DNA of 64,000 bases from Eumeta japonica (Eukaryota > Arthropoda > Insecta > Lepidoptera > Psychidae): positions 1 through 64,000 of the forward strand of contig BGZK01000726.1 in NCBI GenBank assembly GCA_005406025.1, read 5' to 3'. A model generated the notes under the pieces. It did not search any database, was not told the origin of the DNA, and worked only from the letters and a program-made list of their open reading frames with translations. Positions 7,478 to 42,700 of this stretch are shown piece after piece (position 1 is the first letter of the stretch; every line of letters begins with the position of its first letter). Both the position numbers and the translations under genes were made by a program.

Positions 7478-8920
7478 GTAAGCCGCCGAATTCCCTATTC
7501 ATAAAATAACTTGTGTTCATGCGTACTAAAAGACGCGAATGGACCGCGTATTCTACTTTAAAACGACGATATGAAACTGTGTAAAAGTAATATCAACGAA
7601 TCCTGAAGAAATTAAACGATTACTTAATGAAAATAATAATAATGTACAGGATTTTAAGATTAAAAAGTATAAAGTAATTTCTCCTAACCGTATGCAAATT
7701 TATAATGTAATACAGATACCTAACCTCGTGCAGATTGTCTTAAAAAATTTGATTTTAAATTTTCAATAGCTACATAAATAGTCCCTCGATATATAAATTG
7801 TCTAGTCGAATCCCTCACATTTTTATTACATCGGAAAGACACTAGCCGTTGTGGAGTCGGCGCCGCCCGCCGGCCGCCACCCGCCGCCCTCCGCATCGGC
7901 CCACGTCCGTCGTTTCATGTCTCACTAGTATTTTCGTACCTGTTGAAAATTCACAGCCACAAATTTTCAAGGCAATTTGTAAGGGATCAGAAATTCGAAG
8001 AAAACCAGAAGAAATGATTTTATGCTTTTAGTCCATTTTAAACAAGTAATATATTATTTATTGTTTCAATAATTATTTTGTGCTTTTAATGTTGTCTGCA
8101 ATTTTGCAATCGAACATCAACGTCTCGACGAGACCACGACAGAAACACCACTTGTTTCAGGTTTATTTCCGTTCCTTTTTGTCTAATCGTATGTAAGTAG
8201 TAAATTGGAATACTTACCTACCAATAATAATATTCCAGTCTGATTTATTATTATTTTCTTGAAACATAAAATAAAAAAGCAAACAAAATTAATTTGGTTA
8301 AAAACATTTTTATTTCAATACCAAATTAAAACATAGCCATATTCACCTTAGTTTCCATTTCAAATATAAGACTCACTGATGATGTAGGAGATCCCAGTTG
8401 TCGTATTCTTTTCGATCAAACCTATTTTAATTTTTTTACTAAAAAACAAATAGACAAAAAAGCGAGTTAATATTACGTTATCAATAAATTCTGAGTTATG
8501 TTAACAATTTCAAGTCTCTTACTCATATCACTGCGACACTTTCGTCATACAAATCGCAAAATTTGTACCTTACATGCAAACAAACATACAAAAAAAGCGC
8601 GATAATACAATAATTTAATAAATATCCAGTCTGTCTGTTTTCATAAAATGATTCATGTCATGAAAACTATCGAATTAGAATACATTTTATATAGTTGCAT
8701 TTTTTCTTAGAAGCTGACTTAAAATATGCGTGTTACGTAATTCAGCAGTTTAAAGCTAAAATCGCAACCTGTATTCTTTTAACTATATCTAACTATATTT
8801 TTATACCGCATACGGAAGGTAGTTAAAAAAGGAAAGGGCTCAGTTCCTTTAATTATACGTAGCTACGACCGGTATTGCTGTGATAGCGATATTCAGAGTA
8901 CCTTCGATCCACGCAATAAA
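7478..8920. other. Mostly AT-rich; possible intron sequence
   Basis: If the donor at 7478 is used, this would be intronic. A small GC-rich block lies at 7850-7910, with an open plus frame of 60 codons that I do not recognise. Nothing else is supported. Confidence 0.35.
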
Positions 8921-33114: not shown

Positions 33115-34095
33115 ATTCTTGTCTATGCAGCAGAATTAAATCTTTATTCCAATGTTATCATTTAGAGAATTTATATTTGGAACCGGCTAGGTTCACAGCT
33201 ACTTCGGCATCTTGTGCCGATAATTTACTCACAAATATTAAGCCACAATTTCAGTCGGTTATAAATAAATTATTATCTGACCATTGTGGACAACTGGTTA
33301 AGTTTGAAATTAATTCTAAAATAAATATAAAACATAAGATCAAAATTATGCCTGTGAACACTGGTCGTCTTGAGCAGCTTAGAAACAACGTACTAAAAAA
33401 AATCGTCTAACTTGTCATTGTAAAGACCCTACAGGATATTGTTCACTGCTTACTGTAACCAGGTCTGAATGCAGCAATATTTTGATGAAAAAATATTAAT
33501 GTTAATAATAATTTATCATTTAGTGATTGGGCGACAGTGGGCATTCATAATTGTAGGCGTTGATTATACGCACTTTATAAAGAAAAGTAGTTTAACAATT
33601 CGGTTAATTTAGTCAATTATGTAAGAAATTATTCCAAGGTATTTAAGCGTGTATTTGCAGCCTCAAAATCTATGTTAATCAATAATAAAATAAAATATAG
33701 CACTGATATGATAAAAACTACTTGAAATATAATCAATAGTAAAACTGGAAAACACACACCCACCATCATACAGAATTTCAATTAAAAATTGATTACAAAA
33801 TTTTAAACAAAAACAAAGAAATTGCTTTTGCTCTTGAAAAATTTTTTGCTAGAATTCCAATTTTAACTACACAATCTCTAAAATCATCGTCCATTCTCGC
33901 TGAATCTTTGTTGAAGCGAAAGTTGACACCTGTGACATTATGTTTGAATTTAATCATGTCAACTACAATGACGTTATTAAAACATTCAAATGCATAAAAA
34001 TGAAAAAACCTGCTGATCTTGATGGCCTTTCTATTAAAACAATAGATTCATTAATAGACTGCATTGCTCCATGCTTAGTAAAGTCCAGTAATTTT
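33115..34095 (+). pseudogene. CR1/Daphne-like LINE, part 2 (end of endonuclease, linker, RT start)
   Basis: Resumes the host LINE with SRIKSLFQCYHLENLYLEPA, SASCADNLLTNI and INKLLSDHCGQLVKF, which is the endonuclease C-terminus with the conserved SDH. It continues through linker sequence to FKCIKMKKPADLDGLSIKTI, the LDGLS-type start of the RT palm. It stops abruptly at the inverted terminus of the transposon at 34096. Confidence 0.8.
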
Positions 34096-34101
34096 AGGTT
34101 T

Positions 34102-34400
34102 CATCTGCGGAAAAATTCCTAGTGAGATGAATTTTTGTATAAACCTTTATTACGGCGTTGTAATGAAGATGTGAAAAATCGACATTGATATCGTGCCGGC
34201 TAAAAAAGTTATGAAGGTCAAAACGTCATGAAAATCCATTTTTCGCAAATATCTCGAGACTTATTGCTCGGAGGTTAATAGAGGTCATTATAAAAATTGT
34301 CGTAAAATTATCTACAAAAAATGCATTTTGCATTTTTCTGTAAAATTAACCATTTTCGGATTAGAGCACTGAGAAAGCGACTACATTATGACGATGCATT
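34102..34400. repeat. Left terminal inverted repeat of the PIN-CXC transposon
   Basis: Read rightward it carries atctgcggaaaaattcctag, acctttattacg.cgttgtaatg, gccggctaaaaaagttat, caaatatctcg, acttattgctcggaggt, tgcatttttctgtaaaatta and gagaaagcgac. The same phrases occur in inverted order at 40810-41105 with about 10-15% mismatch judged by eye. Confidence 0.85.
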
Positions 34401-34699
34401 CGTTTCTTCACCACCTTCGAGGTAGAATGCAAGGCGCGTTTTTTTTTACATGGTTTCACCCGCAGACATAATACATGATATGTAATGAGAGGTTTTTTTT
34501 TATTTGAGAGTGAATAATTTTTTATTTGAATACTAAAAAATAAACTTTACTATATAATTTTTTTATCATTTATTATCGATATCTACAGTTTCTACCTCAT
34601 TAATAGTTGCTGACAATACGTCGAGTGGATTTATTTCTGTATTTAAATCGACATCTTTATCATTTTCATCGTTGGTTGACTCTGCGTTTAAGCATGACT

Positions 34700-34850
34700 G
34701 GCCACGGCAATGTCCACAAACTTTTGAACATCTTAATCCAATTTTTTTGCATCCACATTTGCCGCCACAACCTTTTGTACAATTACAAAAGATTGTGTTC
34801 AGTAGATCATCGAGTGCTGGTGGTAATAAAGTTGTTATTGGCTGTAGAAT
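34700..34850 (-). pseudogene. Tesmin/TSO1-type CXC domain
   Basis: The sequence FCNCTKGCGGKCGCKKIG continues into LRCSKVCGHCRGQSC. The spacing C-x-C-x4-C-x4-C-x-C-x6-C-x3-C-x2-C-x4-C fits one half of the zinc-binding CRC/CXC DNA-binding domain (tesmin, TSO1, MSL2). It sits at the C-terminus, after the PIN-like domain, followed by an Asp/Glu-rich tail. DNA recognition of the terminal repeats is a plausible role. Confidence 0.8.
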
Positions 34851-35149
34851 ATTATTTTTTAACTCCCGACCCCACTGTTCTGGTTCAATTTCTCTTCCTA
34901 GCCAGGTTTGTATTTGATAATACACTCGATTAATATACTGTGGAGCTGCTGAAGAAGTAGGTGGTAACAATGAAAATTTGACAGCTGTGCTTTGTCTTGT
35001 TAGTTTAGCAAAGCTACAGTATCTGTAATTATCTATCGAATGTTCTGATTTCGGAGCACCGTACATTGCTAGTAGAAAATGGATTCCGGCATTGACAATG
35101 ACATCTGGAGAGCAATTTTTTGGTTGGAATATTTCTGCAGAATTGTTTA

Positions 35150-35838
35150 AATCGGGTCTTTTTTCAAACATCTTCATGACTTTCATTTTTCCTTTCCCAA
35201 AAAGTGCTGAAGTTGTATCACATCCGGTCATGGCATATAGAAACAGAATATTTCTGTTGCAATGTGGATACTTGTTGAGGCTATCAGTCGAATATATTTT
35301 GGTTTCAACATTGTTTTCCCTGGTTTTAAAAAAAAAATTGATGTAAGTTGATCAAGTATTTTTGTGCGTGCTATGAGGAGTACCAACAGATCTATGTCTT
35401 CGCCAACGATAATTGTAATATTATTTAGTGATTGTTCAATCGCTGTTTCAACTATTAAGACGTCAGCATCATCACGTAACTGTCTTGTAGCAATACCAAC
35501 TTCTTCGAACTTCTCAATAAGCATTTGAATTAGTTTTCTTTTGTTAAATCGATTAGCTAAGAATTTTTCTTGACTGATAGGAATTTCCATCGATTCATTG
35601 AAGTTCACTTCAGAAGATGTAGAAACGGCAGCGGTTCGTCTTAGCTGTTCCAACGTTTTGATATTTTACTGGTATCAGAGTAACCATCAAAAATTACAGC
35701 AATATTTGTACCAAAATTATTTGATAAATAATTAATATATTTGTTAATGATAATATTAAATGTATCATTTTTTTTTTGCCATACGACACGATGCATAAGA
35801 AATCCACCATCGATTATGTATGTTGCATTATTACAAAC
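35150..35838 (-). pseudogene. PIN / flap-endonuclease-like nuclease domain within the transposon gene
   Basis: Acidic motifs appear in FEN1/XPG order: YIIDGGFLMHRVVW (first Asp), IAVIFDGYSDT (second Asp, like FEN1 VFDG), then after one frameshift RDDADVLIVETA (the EAEA-like site), IIVGEDIDLLVLL (the DxD site, like FEN1 EDMDCL), and MTGCDTTSALFGKGK (like GSDY...). All metal-ligand positions appear kept although the gene is frameshifted. A metal-dependent structure-specific nuclease is therefore the likely activity of the intact parent; this follows from motif order only. Confidence 0.7.
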
Positions 35839-38559
35839 TAATTGATAATTAATTGGCTCGAAGTAGTCGTATATTTAGACGTTTGAGTTTTTCTTATGCC
35901 AACATTATCAAATAGTGCTACTGGATAAGGACTTAATTCATATTGTAAATGTTCACAAAGATTTTCTTCAATTTTTTTATTTAAACTAATTCGTTGAAGT
36001 AGTAATAACGGATCGATCGTGACCTTACAGTTATGAACCATGATAGAAGTGTTTACTGATGATAATGGAAGAATTCTATCAGAGCATTTTAATGTAATTT
36101 TATCGAATGTTACTCTTATAATTTTTGACTGCAGACCAATTTCTTTGGCATTATAACAGTTGATTTTATTATTGCCAACAACTCCTGTTGATACAGAAAC
36201 TACTTGATTGTAAGTTGAAAAAAGGATTATGCAAAGCAAACCACCCTACACCTTTCTTAATGTCAGTATTGTCTCTTTCAATGCGTGAATCTCTTGAGTC
36301 TACATGTTGATCCGCGGTATCAAATGAAAGGTCGCAAAATTTTTCAATTTCTTCACAAACTGCGTTTGTTGCATGCATGCCATATATCCACTTAGATAAG
36401 ATGCTTTCATGAGTACTCGTTCCTTGAGAAACCCCCTCCTTCACTTTTCATAGACTTCATCAAACTTTGTTCAATAGTCATGTCGGTCCAGGTTCCACAA
36501 TTTAATTTATGTGTGCGTCTTACTGCAAATGTTTTTGTAAAGTTTATATAGTCTTGATTATCCATTGTATCTTTCAAAGCTATCGTATCTTGCTATTATA
36601 GATGTGCAGATTTAGCATACAGGAAATGACCAGACGCATGAAAATATGGAAGCATTCGCTGAACACTTGCAAGATAATCATTCCAAGACCCTAGTCTCTC
36701 AGCACGAATGAAATCATTAGCTATTGATATCATTTAAATGTATTGTAGCCATAACTGAGCAGTAGGACCACGGCTTTTTAATTTAGCTACTTCGTCATTA
36801 AATAACTGTATTAGTCCGTTCAAAACTTCTTCAGATTCTTCAATATTATCATAATACATCGTCCTTCTCATGATATCCATGATGTAACCTTCCAAAAACT
36901 CTTGGAGATTTTGATCGATCGCTAATTTATCATAATTAAGCTTCATTAGTGCAACTCTAATTAGTCCATGTCTTCCTACACTTCTTGCAAAAGCATGGCC
37001 ATCTAACATTTTTCCAACTGAATTTGGATCATAAATAACACTAAGAGCTTCCTTGAGTGCACTTCCTTCCATTATATATCCTATAGATCCAAGAAACGAC
37101 ATAAGCATATGGTAACCACCTAGTCTTACAATAACGTTCGATATATCAGATTGAACATCAACAGCAGCTACAATTTCGCGAGCCTTATAGTAAAGTGGCT
37201 GATCAAAAGTAATAATGTAACAATTCTGTCCATGTGATTTGGCACTACGTACTGCACAATCTAATGTGGTGTAAATTGTATCTTTATTATTTTCAGGATG
37301 ATGAATAAAGGGTAGGAACATTACGTTCGATGTTGTAAAGTCTTTATTATTTTTTGTTAGCTTCTCTGAAAATCCATTCCACCCTGGTAGACCGTTGACA
37401 TCTCTCCACTTTGCGTATGCCCACAATAAGTCGACATTACTACAAATTGCTTCGTTTAAAATAACACAATAATCGATTTCTACAACTGTAATCTTACTCA
37501 TTCCAACTACTTCATTATTTTCGTAAATTAAAAGAGGTACGTCTGAAACTGCAGCTAAATCCTCAGCGTTTGGTTTACTTTTACATTTCACGGTAGGCAT
37601 ATCAGCTACCATAACGTTACTTGGAGAAATTATTTTTATTGCACCCATTATATGTTCAGTATTATGCCCATCAAAGGTGGAAACGTTAATGTCTGCATTA
37701 TCTGCAGCATACTGTAACATTACATCAGGCTGTGAAATAAAGGTAGGTTGAGGATGATAAATAATTGACACTTCATAATTCACAGCATCGTTATATGGAG
37801 CACAAAATCCAAAACTTGACAAAACATCTCATAATCTTTTTGAGGCATATCTTTTATTCAGAAATACAGAATGGCAGCAGCTGTGATGAAAACGATCGTC
37901 GACTCAGTACACTCGTTATAGTATCGGCTATGGCTGTAGATTTTGCTGCCTTTTTATTTTCACAATTAATTCATGCATGTGTTAAACGTCATTAATATTA
38001 TCTAATATTCGACTTCGGAACGAATAACTTCTTTAGTACACTATCTACGGGCATTATGAGAATTTCAAGTCGGCCGTGGTTTCGCAAAAACCCCAAAAAT
38101 CGCGAAAATTCGATGTTTTAGTAAGAAAAAATTTGAGGATCTAAGAAAAGCATGATTTTATGTATTTCGATCTGTGAAATACTAATTTTGATTGTGCTTC
38201 AATTATAAGCTATTTTAAATCGAAAAAATTGGAATTATCTCGGTATAAAAATTTGTGGACATTGACGAAAATTTTGATGTTATTTGATTTTCGATCTGAT
38301 GCTGTAATAAATTTAGCCCATAATGCCCTCAAACATTCATAAAACGACAAAAATTGATGAAATAACAGAAAATTGCTGCTGAAAAATAGAAAAATCTTTT
38401 AAACACGATTAAATAAACTTCTTGTATTTTTATCTATAAAATACAAGATTAAGATCTGAAAACGCAAAAAAATTGTATAATTTATAAAATGACGTATAAA
38501 CAGAATACGTCCAACAGAAAGAATAGAAACAGAAACAGAATATCTCCAAATTTCTTCTT

Positions 38560-39010
38560 CCTCTTCTTCATCTTCTTCCTCCATTGGCATTCTTCTTTCT
38601 CTACTTCCATCTCTTCAAGAGCTTCGGTTTCATCATCAATAACTGTTTTCTGTGGCTTAACAGCTGATGAAACATTGATTTTATTTTACTTCTATTTGAA
38701 GAAGTAAAACCGGCAATGTCAGTCATACAGAAGTAACAGTTGTGCAATTTGTTGGTGAAGTCCAAATCATGGGAATCGTAAATTTTAAGTTTTCTTTTGT
38801 CTTATTTTTCCCATCGTATCAACATGATATGACATCGACCACAAACAAAGTGTGGGACCCAAACTGAATCAAATTTGTAATCTGAATGAAAGCATTCTTC
38901 ATAACTTTGTTTTAATCTATCTGTAAAATTCTACGGTTTTGTCGGCTCAAACTCCCCACAAATGTAACAGAATAGATCAGGATTCTTATTGCACAGATGG
39001 GAATTAATAG
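38560..39010 (-). pseudogene. Zinc-motif gene fragment carried by the nested element
   Basis: Minus-strand frames read HLCNKNPDLFCYICGEFEP, then after a stop FTDRLKQSYEECFHSDYKF, SVWVPHFVCGRCHIML, and after further breaks HNCYFCMTDIAGF. The C-x2-C pairs and the WVPHxVC phrase match an insect/arthropod predicted-protein family I remember as repetitive and uncharacterised. The downstream part becomes Glu-rich. It is a remnant of the element's own gene or a captured one. The plus-strand 72-codon frame here is its shadow. Confidence 0.6.
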
Positions 39011-39245
39011 TACACTCTCCAGTAGCCAAGTTTCCCACTACTGAAGAGCTGCAGTCGCTGGATGACGACGCCTACCCTGACCAGACGCCGATACTGGGTT
39101 TCCGGATCCCTGCATCGTAAAGTACTTATCACTTGTGCCATGACGGCACACACCCGTTAACCCAGGGACTCTGCCAGATGGTTCTGTTGCCCACCGTCAC
39201 CCTGAGGAGGTGCCCTGGTTGCAAGTACAAGCGATCATGCAATGA
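39010..39245. other. GC-richer spacer inside nested element, unrecognised
   Basis: This part (ctggatgacgacgcctaccc..., ctgaggaggtgccctggttg) differs in composition from the AT-rich arms. It may be captured foreign sequence. No protein was recognised. Confidence 0.3.
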
Positions 39246-40809
39246 AATGAAATTTTCGTCAATCCGCGTCCACAAATTTTTATACCGAGATAATTCCAAT
39301 TTTTGCGATTTTGCAATTTTAAGGATTTTTCCAATTTTTTCGATTTAAAATAGCTTATAATTGAACAAAATTAGTATTTCACAGATCGAAATACATAAAA
39401 TCATGCTTTTAGATCCTCAAACTTTTTCTTACTAAAACATCGAATTTTCGCGATTTTTGGGGTTTTTGCAATTTACTCGAAACTGAGGGCTGGACGGCCT
39501 AAACCGACTTGAAATTCGTGTTTAGCGGGTCGAATGCCCGTAGATAGGTGGCGCTCGGTGTACAGACAACTTTTTTTTGTGTGCCGGTGTTATTGATCAG
39601 CTGCTTCTTTGAAGACATTCATCACAATGATTTTGTTTTTTTTCTTCGTACCACGAATTAGCCAAAATATTAGTTGCAGTATCTAATTAAAAAATAGAGA
39701 AAAATATTGTTAAAGATTTACTTTTCGTGGTAATCACAATATTACTCCCATATCGAACAATTAATTTTGTTATTATTGTTTTATCGTCTGGAACGTAATC
39801 TTTAATCACATTTTTTAACTCAGCCAATGTGAATTGACTATAGTCATTATTTTCTATGTAATGAAAAACCACTCTCCATGGCAATTCTAATATTTTCATC
39901 CAATGGACGGCCTGCATCACCCTTTCCACTGATTAATAAAAAAATAGAAAAACATTTATCATGATACTTAGCTTCGACAGATACTAAGTCATACTCAAAA
40001 TTTACACGCTCCTTTACACTTCTTCCATATTTATCACCACGCGCCTCTGCGGCTTTCAACACTGTGTCTTTAAATGTAAGAGTCTTCTCTAAAAACGCGT
40101 CTGTATTTTTTTTCTGTTTTTCTCTTAATTCCTTCACTCGCTTCTTCTCCACAAACATCATTTTTTGAAATCAAAAGAGTTGATTCTCCTCTTACGCGGA
40201 AATTTTGATGTAATCGGTTATTCTTGGCATCATTTAAAAGCCGCAATACTCAAATTGTTTGTATAATTTTTACGACAATTACTATGAACATTCACAAAAG
40301 TCACAGCATTTAAATTTTCAATATTACCATCATATTTAATCAAACTATCTTAATATTACCTCTAGCGATACTAGCATTTTTTATTGTTTGTAGACCACGC
40401 CTAACTTCTACTTCATCACCATCTGATAACAATTCATTGCATACAAAACATGTATCACTCATTATGAAAACTGTTCAAGAGCTTGAAACTATGAAAATAA
40501 CGTCTTTAACACTCAAGAAATATTTTTCAACTGAGCTAAACACAGTCCGACAGACAATAGCAGGTATAAAGGGACGGGCCCCGGAACAATAAAATCGGGA
40601 ATATCTGGCAGATGCCAGTGAAGGTCGTTTATACAATAATAATAATATGCAGTAGATTTTACTAAGTTCCAAAACCTCTATAATATATGTATATTTTTCA
40701 CAAAACGCCTAAATATCAGATAGAAATTTTTAAGACACTTAAAAACATGAATAAAAAGTAATAGAATTTACGCTCTGGTGTACGGTATATAATACCGTAT
40801 GTGGGTGCA

Positions 40810-41106
40810 TTTTAGTCGCTTCTCAGCGCCTCTACTCCGAAAACGACTAATTTTACAGAAAAATGCGAAATGCATTTTTATAGATGATTTTACGACAAAC
40901 AATTTTTATAATGATTTCTATTGACCTCCGAGCAATAAGTCGCGAGATATTTGCGAAAAACTAATTTTCGTGACCTTTTGACCTTTATAACTTTTTTAGC
41001 CGGCATGATATCAATATCGATTTTTCACATCTTCATTACAACGTCGTAATAAAGGTGTATACTAAAATTCAGCTTACTAGGAATTTTTCCGCAGATTTGG
41101 GTTTAA
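40810..41106. repeat. Right terminal inverted repeat of the PIN-CXC transposon
   Basis: Mirror of 34102-34400: gtcgcttctcag, taattttacagaaaaatgc, acctccgagcaataagt, cgagatatttgcg, ataacttttttagccggc, cattacaacgtcgtaataaa and ctaggaatttttccgcagat. Confidence 0.85.
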
Positions 41107-41130
41107 AATGACTAAAATGATTGGACTAAT

Positions 41131-42700
41131 AGTAATTTTTTAATGATTGCGTTGATTGTGATGTGTTTCCCGATCTAATGGAGCAAAGTAAAGTTATTCC
41201 ATTATTTAATCGACATTATCGAATCGATCAGACGCTACTAACTTTAGACTGATATCAACACTACCGACAGTCAGTAAAATTTTTGATAAGCTTATTTTAA
41301 ATCAATTATTACGGTGTTTTTATGATAATAAATTAATAAACGTTAAACAATTCGAATTCACAAAGGGTCGCTCAACTGAACTGAAGCCGATGGTGAGCTT
41401 ATTCAACAGATATTTGATGTCTGAGAAGATTCACGGGACGCGATCGGTGTCTTTTGTGATTTATCCAAGGCTTTTGATTACGTTCATCATGACACTTTAA
41501 TAAGGAAACTACATTATTATGGTGTCACAGGTCAATCACTTGCATTTCTAAAGCCTTATTTAAGAGGTAAAATTCAAAGAGTTGATGTTAATGGTGAGAG
41601 GTGTATCGCAGGGTTTAGTTCTTGGACCGTTTCTGTTCCAAGTTACATCATTGATCTACCAAATCTTGTTAAAAATGGGCGAGCGATTGTACTGTTCGCT
41701 GATGATACTTCTTTACTTTTTAATATTAATTAGCAACAACCAGCTTTTAACGCTGGTACCATCTCTGAAATAGTTGAGTGATTTAGTATTAATTATCTTT
41801 TTGTCAAGGATTGGAAAACAAAACCTGTTAAATTTTCCTTAACTATTTCTAAACCGGTTAACGGCAACGTAATAATCGAGAACGAAATAATGGATACTGT
41901 GGACACGACCTTATTCTTTGGTCTCACTTTAGATGCTAAATTGCATTGGAATCATTCTATTACCAGATTGGCGAAAAGGCTTATTTCTGCAGCATATGCA
42001 GTGCAAAGAATTCGGCGACTTACAGATGAAAGCACCACGAGACTAGTTTATTTCAGTTTTTTTCATAATCTTATTTTGTTATGAGGTCACACAGATGATG
42101 TTAACACAATTTTCGTGCTGTAGGCGTGAACTGATTGTGCTGTTTATGATTTAAGACCAATGGCATCTCTCAGAGAAAAATTTAAGGAAATTAATATTTT
42201 AAATTTCGCATCATAATACTTATACAAAAACCTGGTATATGTCAAGAGACATATAGAGTCGTTCCAGAAAAGGAACGACATCCATAACATTAACATTAAA
42301 CATTATAACAATCTTGCTACTCATAAAACCCGTCTAAGAAAAGTCAATAAATCGTTTAAGGGACAATATGTGCCCCTCATAATAAGATCCCAGCTGAACG
42401 TAAAAATTTATTATTTCATGAGTATAAACATTTCGTTAAAATAAAGTTATATGGCAAAAACTATTATACCGTATCTGAATATTTTAATGAAAAAACCCAT
42501 AGGATTGAACTGGCCGTCTATCAGGTTGCTTCATGTTATTTCTAAGTATTGTACAAAATCATTAATTATTCAATATTTTGTATCGATGAGTAAAAAAGAG
42601 CAAACCTTGAGTCTCTTGTCCGTTTTTCTCATGGTGAATCAGCATTTGAAATGGGTGGTAATTTTAATGTCGAAAACTATTGTTTATGACGCATTTTAGT
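41131..42700 (+). pseudogene. CR1/Daphne-like LINE, part 3 (reverse transcriptase and C-terminus)
   Basis: The host LINE resumes after the transposon: NDCVDCDVFPDLMEQSKVIP, then EFTKGRST, VFCDLSKAFDYVHHDTL (RT palm), LAFLKPYLRGKIQRV, GRAIVLFADDTSLLF (the FADD catalytic box), FFGLTLDAKLHWNHSI and KRLISAAYAVQRIRRL. Frames shift repeatedly. The order is complete to the usual C-terminus, so the pre-insertion LINE was near full length (30.7-42.7 kb minus insertions). Confidence 0.85.

Follow-up and report, generated by a model that had tools for sequence, protein, structure and literature searches.

A decayed DNA transposon of Eumeta japonica encoding a DDE transposase and a flap-type nuclease, most probably of the Academ superfamily

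A block of DNA in the lepidopteran Eumeta japonica, bounded by inverted repeats and holding one long, broken gene, raises the question of whether it represents an undescribed class of transposon or a member of a known superfamily. The block lies in the first 64,000 nucleotides of contig BGZK01000726.1 (the window), and the genome searched for its relatives comprises 702 Mb in 5067 contigs. A sequence-only reading had proposed an undescribed class, citing long inverted termini, a 9-bp flanking direct repeat and a nuclease/CXC protein without a recognizable DDE motif. The analysis presented here identifies the block as the decayed remains of an autonomous cut-and-paste DNA transposon that had inserted into a long interspersed nuclear element (LINE). 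The transposon most probably belongs to the AcademX lineage of the Academ superfamily, and so seems to add a family member to a described superfamily rather than to found a new class. That the block is a single mobile DNA transposon, as first suggested, was upheld by its inverted termini, its broken minus-strand gene, the nested element that it contains and the reverse-transcriptase frames to either side of it.

Termini and target site duplications

The whole transposon was placed at 34081-41128 on the minus strand, the strand of its gene, and measures 7048 bp including the nested element. The left terminal inverted repeat (34081-34366, plus strand) lies at the downstream end of the gene and the right repeat (40830-41128, minus strand) at the upstream end. 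The main inverted arms, 34103-34300 and 40899-41096, are 91% identical over 198 bp, and further arms are found at 34317-34366/40830-40879 (90%) and 34297-34320/40875-40898 (92%). A tip-anchored alignment extends the repeats to about 300 bp, the length initially reported for them, with a 10-bp gap close to the tip, where the right repeat is the longer by about 10 bp. The left tip reads AAGTCC, one change from the TAGTCC seen (as the reverse complement) at the right tip.

The 9-mer AGTAATTTT occurs twice, at 34087-34095 and 41131-41139, and had been taken for a target duplication flanking the element. The left copy, however, falls within the terminal inverted repeat. A stretch matching it (e.g. 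CAGTCATTTTAGG) is terminal-repeat sequence in coding relatives and in a two-ended relative on C685, a short foldback copy with TAGTCCAGTCATTTTAGG at one end, TAGTTCAGTCATTTTAGG at the other and flanks ACA/ACA. Because of the tips and flanks of this copy, the left AGTAATTTT of the window was assigned to the terminal repeat. A 9-mer was shared by chance in 146 of 20,000 draws of two random 30-base stretches from this region. With the left copy inside the repeat and relatives that duplicate 3 bp, the 9-mer was rejected as a target duplication.

The length of the duplication was read from relatives in the same genome. When the tip was searched for with at most one mismatch, 9 matches were obtained at 8 sites, three of which had both tips (C685 as above, C262 TAT/TAT and C459 TAA/TTA) and five a single tip within the fetched stretch. 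An abundant family of non-autonomous elements, 1.0-2.0 kb long and bearing TAGTCC tips and 3-bp duplications, also matches window positions 34400-34475 at 77-79% identity (30 matches, 26 fetched as loci). Its tip, TAGTCCATT(G/A)AAA(A/T)GTTAC, is also that of coding copies C173 and C1584. With up to 3 substitutions tolerated, both tips were found at 20 of the 26 loci, a single tip at five and none at one within the fetched stretches. An exact 3-bp repeat flanks 19 of the 20 two-tipped loci and a 4-bp repeat the other one, compared with 3-bp matches in 33 of 380 control pairings of left and right flanks from different loci. The target duplication of the family is 3 bp, occasionally 4. Because of the tips of the relatives and the 3-bp duplications across the family, the window element was bounded at 34081 and 41128, with GTA (34078-34080) on the left and ATA (41129-41131) on the right, which agree at two of three bases. 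By the usual reverse-transcriptase spacing, a 3-bp model fits better than a 9-bp one, a fit that does not amount to a test.

Coding relatives were located with protein P0001, which gave at least 56 matches in the genome, four of them in the window; this count is a lower bound, 42 of 773 candidates having been scored. Inverted ends lay inside three of the 30 coding loci fetched (two of these loci being the window's own), five more coding sites were examined using extra stretches, and the remaining loci were left out. Both tips were read in seven coding copies, the window element included, the tips being TAGTCCGG or TAATCCGG, TAGTCCAT, TAGTCCAG and TAGTACAG. Four of the seven have an exact 3-bp duplication (C1210 AAC, C632 ATA, C387 CTG and C706 CAG), two have flanks equal at two of three bases (the window element and C173, TTT/TTA), and C1584 has none (CAA/GGT). 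A further coding copy, C1343, showed a single tip only. The relative at C877:12500-19700 has a 1143-residue open C-terminal frame and inverted repeats 90% identical over 614 bp; its tip differs (AGACCAGGGT) and no duplication was found. The C632 copy is internally shortened, and its inverted repeats, 99% identical over 426 bp, may reflect recent activity in this genome.

Gene remnants were found between matching inverted termini at several other sites, which bears out the proposal that the nuclease/CXC protein is the element's own. The further copies that the sequence-only reading called for do exist, with pieces of the gene between matching termini, but with duplications of 3 bp instead of the 8-10 bp anticipated. 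These sites also bear on whether a host CXC-domain gene might have been carried passively between unrelated inverted repeats, as could be supposed from the several homologues named 'Tesmin/TSO1-like CXC domain-containing protein' by their sources. The joint occurrence of gene pieces, matching tips and 3-bp duplications at several places, together with the number of protein matches in this one genome, makes such passive carriage scarcely conceivable.

The encoded protein

Between about 40.47 and 34.57 kb, the minus strand encodes consecutive pieces of one long protein in changing frames. Comparison with P0001 alone yields six frame segments, and homology is interrupted between 39636 and 37943, where the nested element sits. 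Because of these frame breaks and the nested insertion, the window copy is dead. Its N-terminal part (39636-40462, minus strand), delimited by tblastn with residues 1-273 of P0002 and crossed by several frame breaks, bears cysteines and histidines that appear zinc-finger-like by eye, with CFVCNE at 40433-40450.

A read-through of the broken gene recovered 108 protein relatives, those named including many insects and one mussel, and 88 of the 108 were aligned (alignment A1). A DDE transposase domain was recognized at 36410-37870 (minus strand, as are all features of this protein) from its predicted fold and conserved residues. The first aspartate of the motif is one or other of the two conserved aspartates in ADNADIN (37685-37705), the second lies in TFDQPLYY (37187-37210) and the glutamate in TDMTIEQ (36467-36487), and RLGGYH is found within the domain at 37109-37126. 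Invariant or near-invariant positions in A1 include DNxD, TxDQPL..KA, LGGFH and D..IEQ.LM. The structural model points to a DDE (RNase H-fold) core interrupted by an alpha-helical insertion like that of P, hAT and RAG, and 11% identity was obtained to P-element transposase. A Foldseek search with the model of this domain returned nothing at E 0.001 or better, its top rows being small bacterial regulators.

The protein was initially thought to lack a DDE motif, a view that the domain overturns. It also bears on the proposal of an undescribed class, in which the nuclease would act as the recombinase, no DDE transposase would be present and 9-bp duplications would be made. The presence of AGTAATTTT at both sides is what such a class would predict, but with the left copy inside the terminal repeat, 3-bp duplications in the family and a DDE fold with its conserved residues in place, we regard it as very improbable.

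An EXO1/FEN1/XPG-type nuclease domain follows at 35208-35895, with the motifs YIIDGGF (35800-35820), VIFDGYS (35677-35697), DDADVLIV (35450-35473), VGEDIDLL (35384-35407) and TGCDTTS (35208-35228). In A1 the invariant or near-invariant positions of this region include DGG, FDGY, DAD, both aspartates of GEDxDLL and the GCD aspartates. The 88-row profile of the protein family matched Exonuclease 1, and structural alignments gave 12-14% identity to EXO1; unlike EXO1, FEN1 and XPG, the nuclease is here fused to a transposase. A sequence search of the PDB using the single nuclease piece alone gave no match. A C-terminal CXC (Tesmin/TSO1-like) cysteine motif was read from the sequence at 34692-34787.

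No Pfam family, MULE and helicase included, exceeded its cut-off in six pieces of the window transposon (five plus one) or in seven homologues. Four of the seven homologues gave a weak match to DUF6589 (best E 5.1e-5, 22.6 bits, under the cut-off of 27), a clue that led to no relevant literature. Mutator-like elements have duplications of 8-10 bp, and the long inverted repeats, taken with a supposed 9-bp duplication, had suggested a likeness to them. The repeats are indeed long, but with duplications of 3 bp in the family and no MULE match among the window pieces and homologues scanned, a Mutator-like element is highly unlikely.

Relationship to Academ

The nuclease of AcademX is of the XPG type, and a Cys8 zinc finger is a feature of Academ proteins. 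P elements duplicate 8 bp, in contrast to the 3 bp seen here, and the flap-nuclease and CXC parts are additional to what a P-element transposase has. In the literature, AcademX is described as encoding a nuclease and making 3 or 4 bp target duplications, and AcademH as encoding a helicase and making duplications of 9 or 10 bp (PMC10045372); Academ is counted among the DDD/E transposase superfamilies (PMC9587614). With AcademX the present family shares the DDD/E transposase domain common to the superfamily, an encoded nuclease, here of the EXO1/FEN1/XPG family, and duplications of 3 or 4 bp (three in 19 of 20 non-autonomous loci and four in one; exact in four of seven coding copies). No difference from AcademX was established in this comparison by description, the window copy being broken and carrying a nested element. 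AcademH belongs to the same superfamily and has a DDE transposase, but differs in its duplication length; no match to a helicase, such as AcademH encodes, was obtained in the six window pieces (from a broken copy) or the seven homologues. In a search meant to reach helicase-bearing AcademH relatives, which gave the 493 matches described below, none of the 120 listed bore a helicase Pfam label, though most were unlabelled altogether. The proposal of an undescribed class is not supported: the DDE domain, the nuclease and the 3-4 bp duplications agree with the published AcademX description (PMC10045372), Academ being represented by that description rather than by its sequences. The domains of the nuclease-bearing Academ protein are not described in the passages available from PMC9587614, PMC10799480, PMC12730594, PMC4455052, PMC9004415 and PMC9143410. 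Because Academ was compared by published description only, rather than with reference sequences, membership is strongly indicated but short of proof.

For the same reason, it might be argued that this DDE transposon, though alike in design, belongs to a separate, unnamed superfamily, with an AcademX-like nuclease and 3-bp duplications but no kinship with AcademX. The likeness to Academ is one of description, and the seven homologues scanned matched no Pfam family at its cut-off. However, both the domain set and the duplication length fit the published account of AcademX (PMC10045372), and there is overlap in hosts. Academ has been reported as frequent in bivalves, with a mean length of 5565 bp (PMC10294476), and as known in the Lepidoptera B. 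mori, M. sexta, D. plexippus and Biston betularia (PMC5704228), and homologues of the present protein were found in Mytilus, Porites, Patella and insects. A separate superfamily is accordingly rated as rather unlikely, and the AcademX assignment is preferred.

The arrangement of the protein suggests how an AcademX element of this kind may move. The DDE core would cut at the TAGTCC tips and join the ends to the target at cuts staggered by 3 bp, or occasionally by 4; the flap nuclease might trim flaps or single-stranded ends arising from excision or integration, and the zinc-binding and CXC parts would bind the DNA ends. An influence of the nuclease on Academ duplication length is an idea already published (PMC10045372), and the fusion of a DDE core with a flap endonuclease offers a testable case for it. 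A more radical version, in which a lineage separate from Academ combines a P/RAG-like DDE core with an entire flap endonuclease of the EXO1/FEN1 type and a DNA-binding CXC tail, and sets the 3-bp duplication by its own end-processing, appears quite unlikely.

Homologues, nested element and host LINE

A profile of 23 distant members matched 493 proteins at E 0.001 or better, and corals, mussels, a limpet and a periwinkle were among the hosts of the 120 listed. In both protein searches, scoring was confined to the 7,994-7,995 candidates with most words in common. The present element indicates that the abundant 'uncharacterised CXC-domain' family of animal proteins includes transposases, and gene models of this family should therefore be checked as transposon-derived. 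IMG/VR viral contigs were scanned with A1; 14 stretches matched and none was confirmed.

The nested second element (about 38084-39469) splits the transposase gene and has inverted arms at 38084-38260 and 39268-39469, about 180-200 bp long and 95-100% identical per block. Within it, a small cysteine-rich frame at 38805-38930 shows weak, zf-AD-like similarity (E 6e-4, under cut-off). The LINE reverse transcriptase said to continue on both sides of the transposon was recovered on the right, as a piece matching RVT_1 (PF00078, E 6.9e-6, 26.4 bits, under the Pfam cut-off of 29.6); on the left, the same kind of frame was read by eye only. The entry of one homologue, P0045, gives the rust fungus Austropuccinia psidii as its source, possibly through contamination or horizontal transfer.
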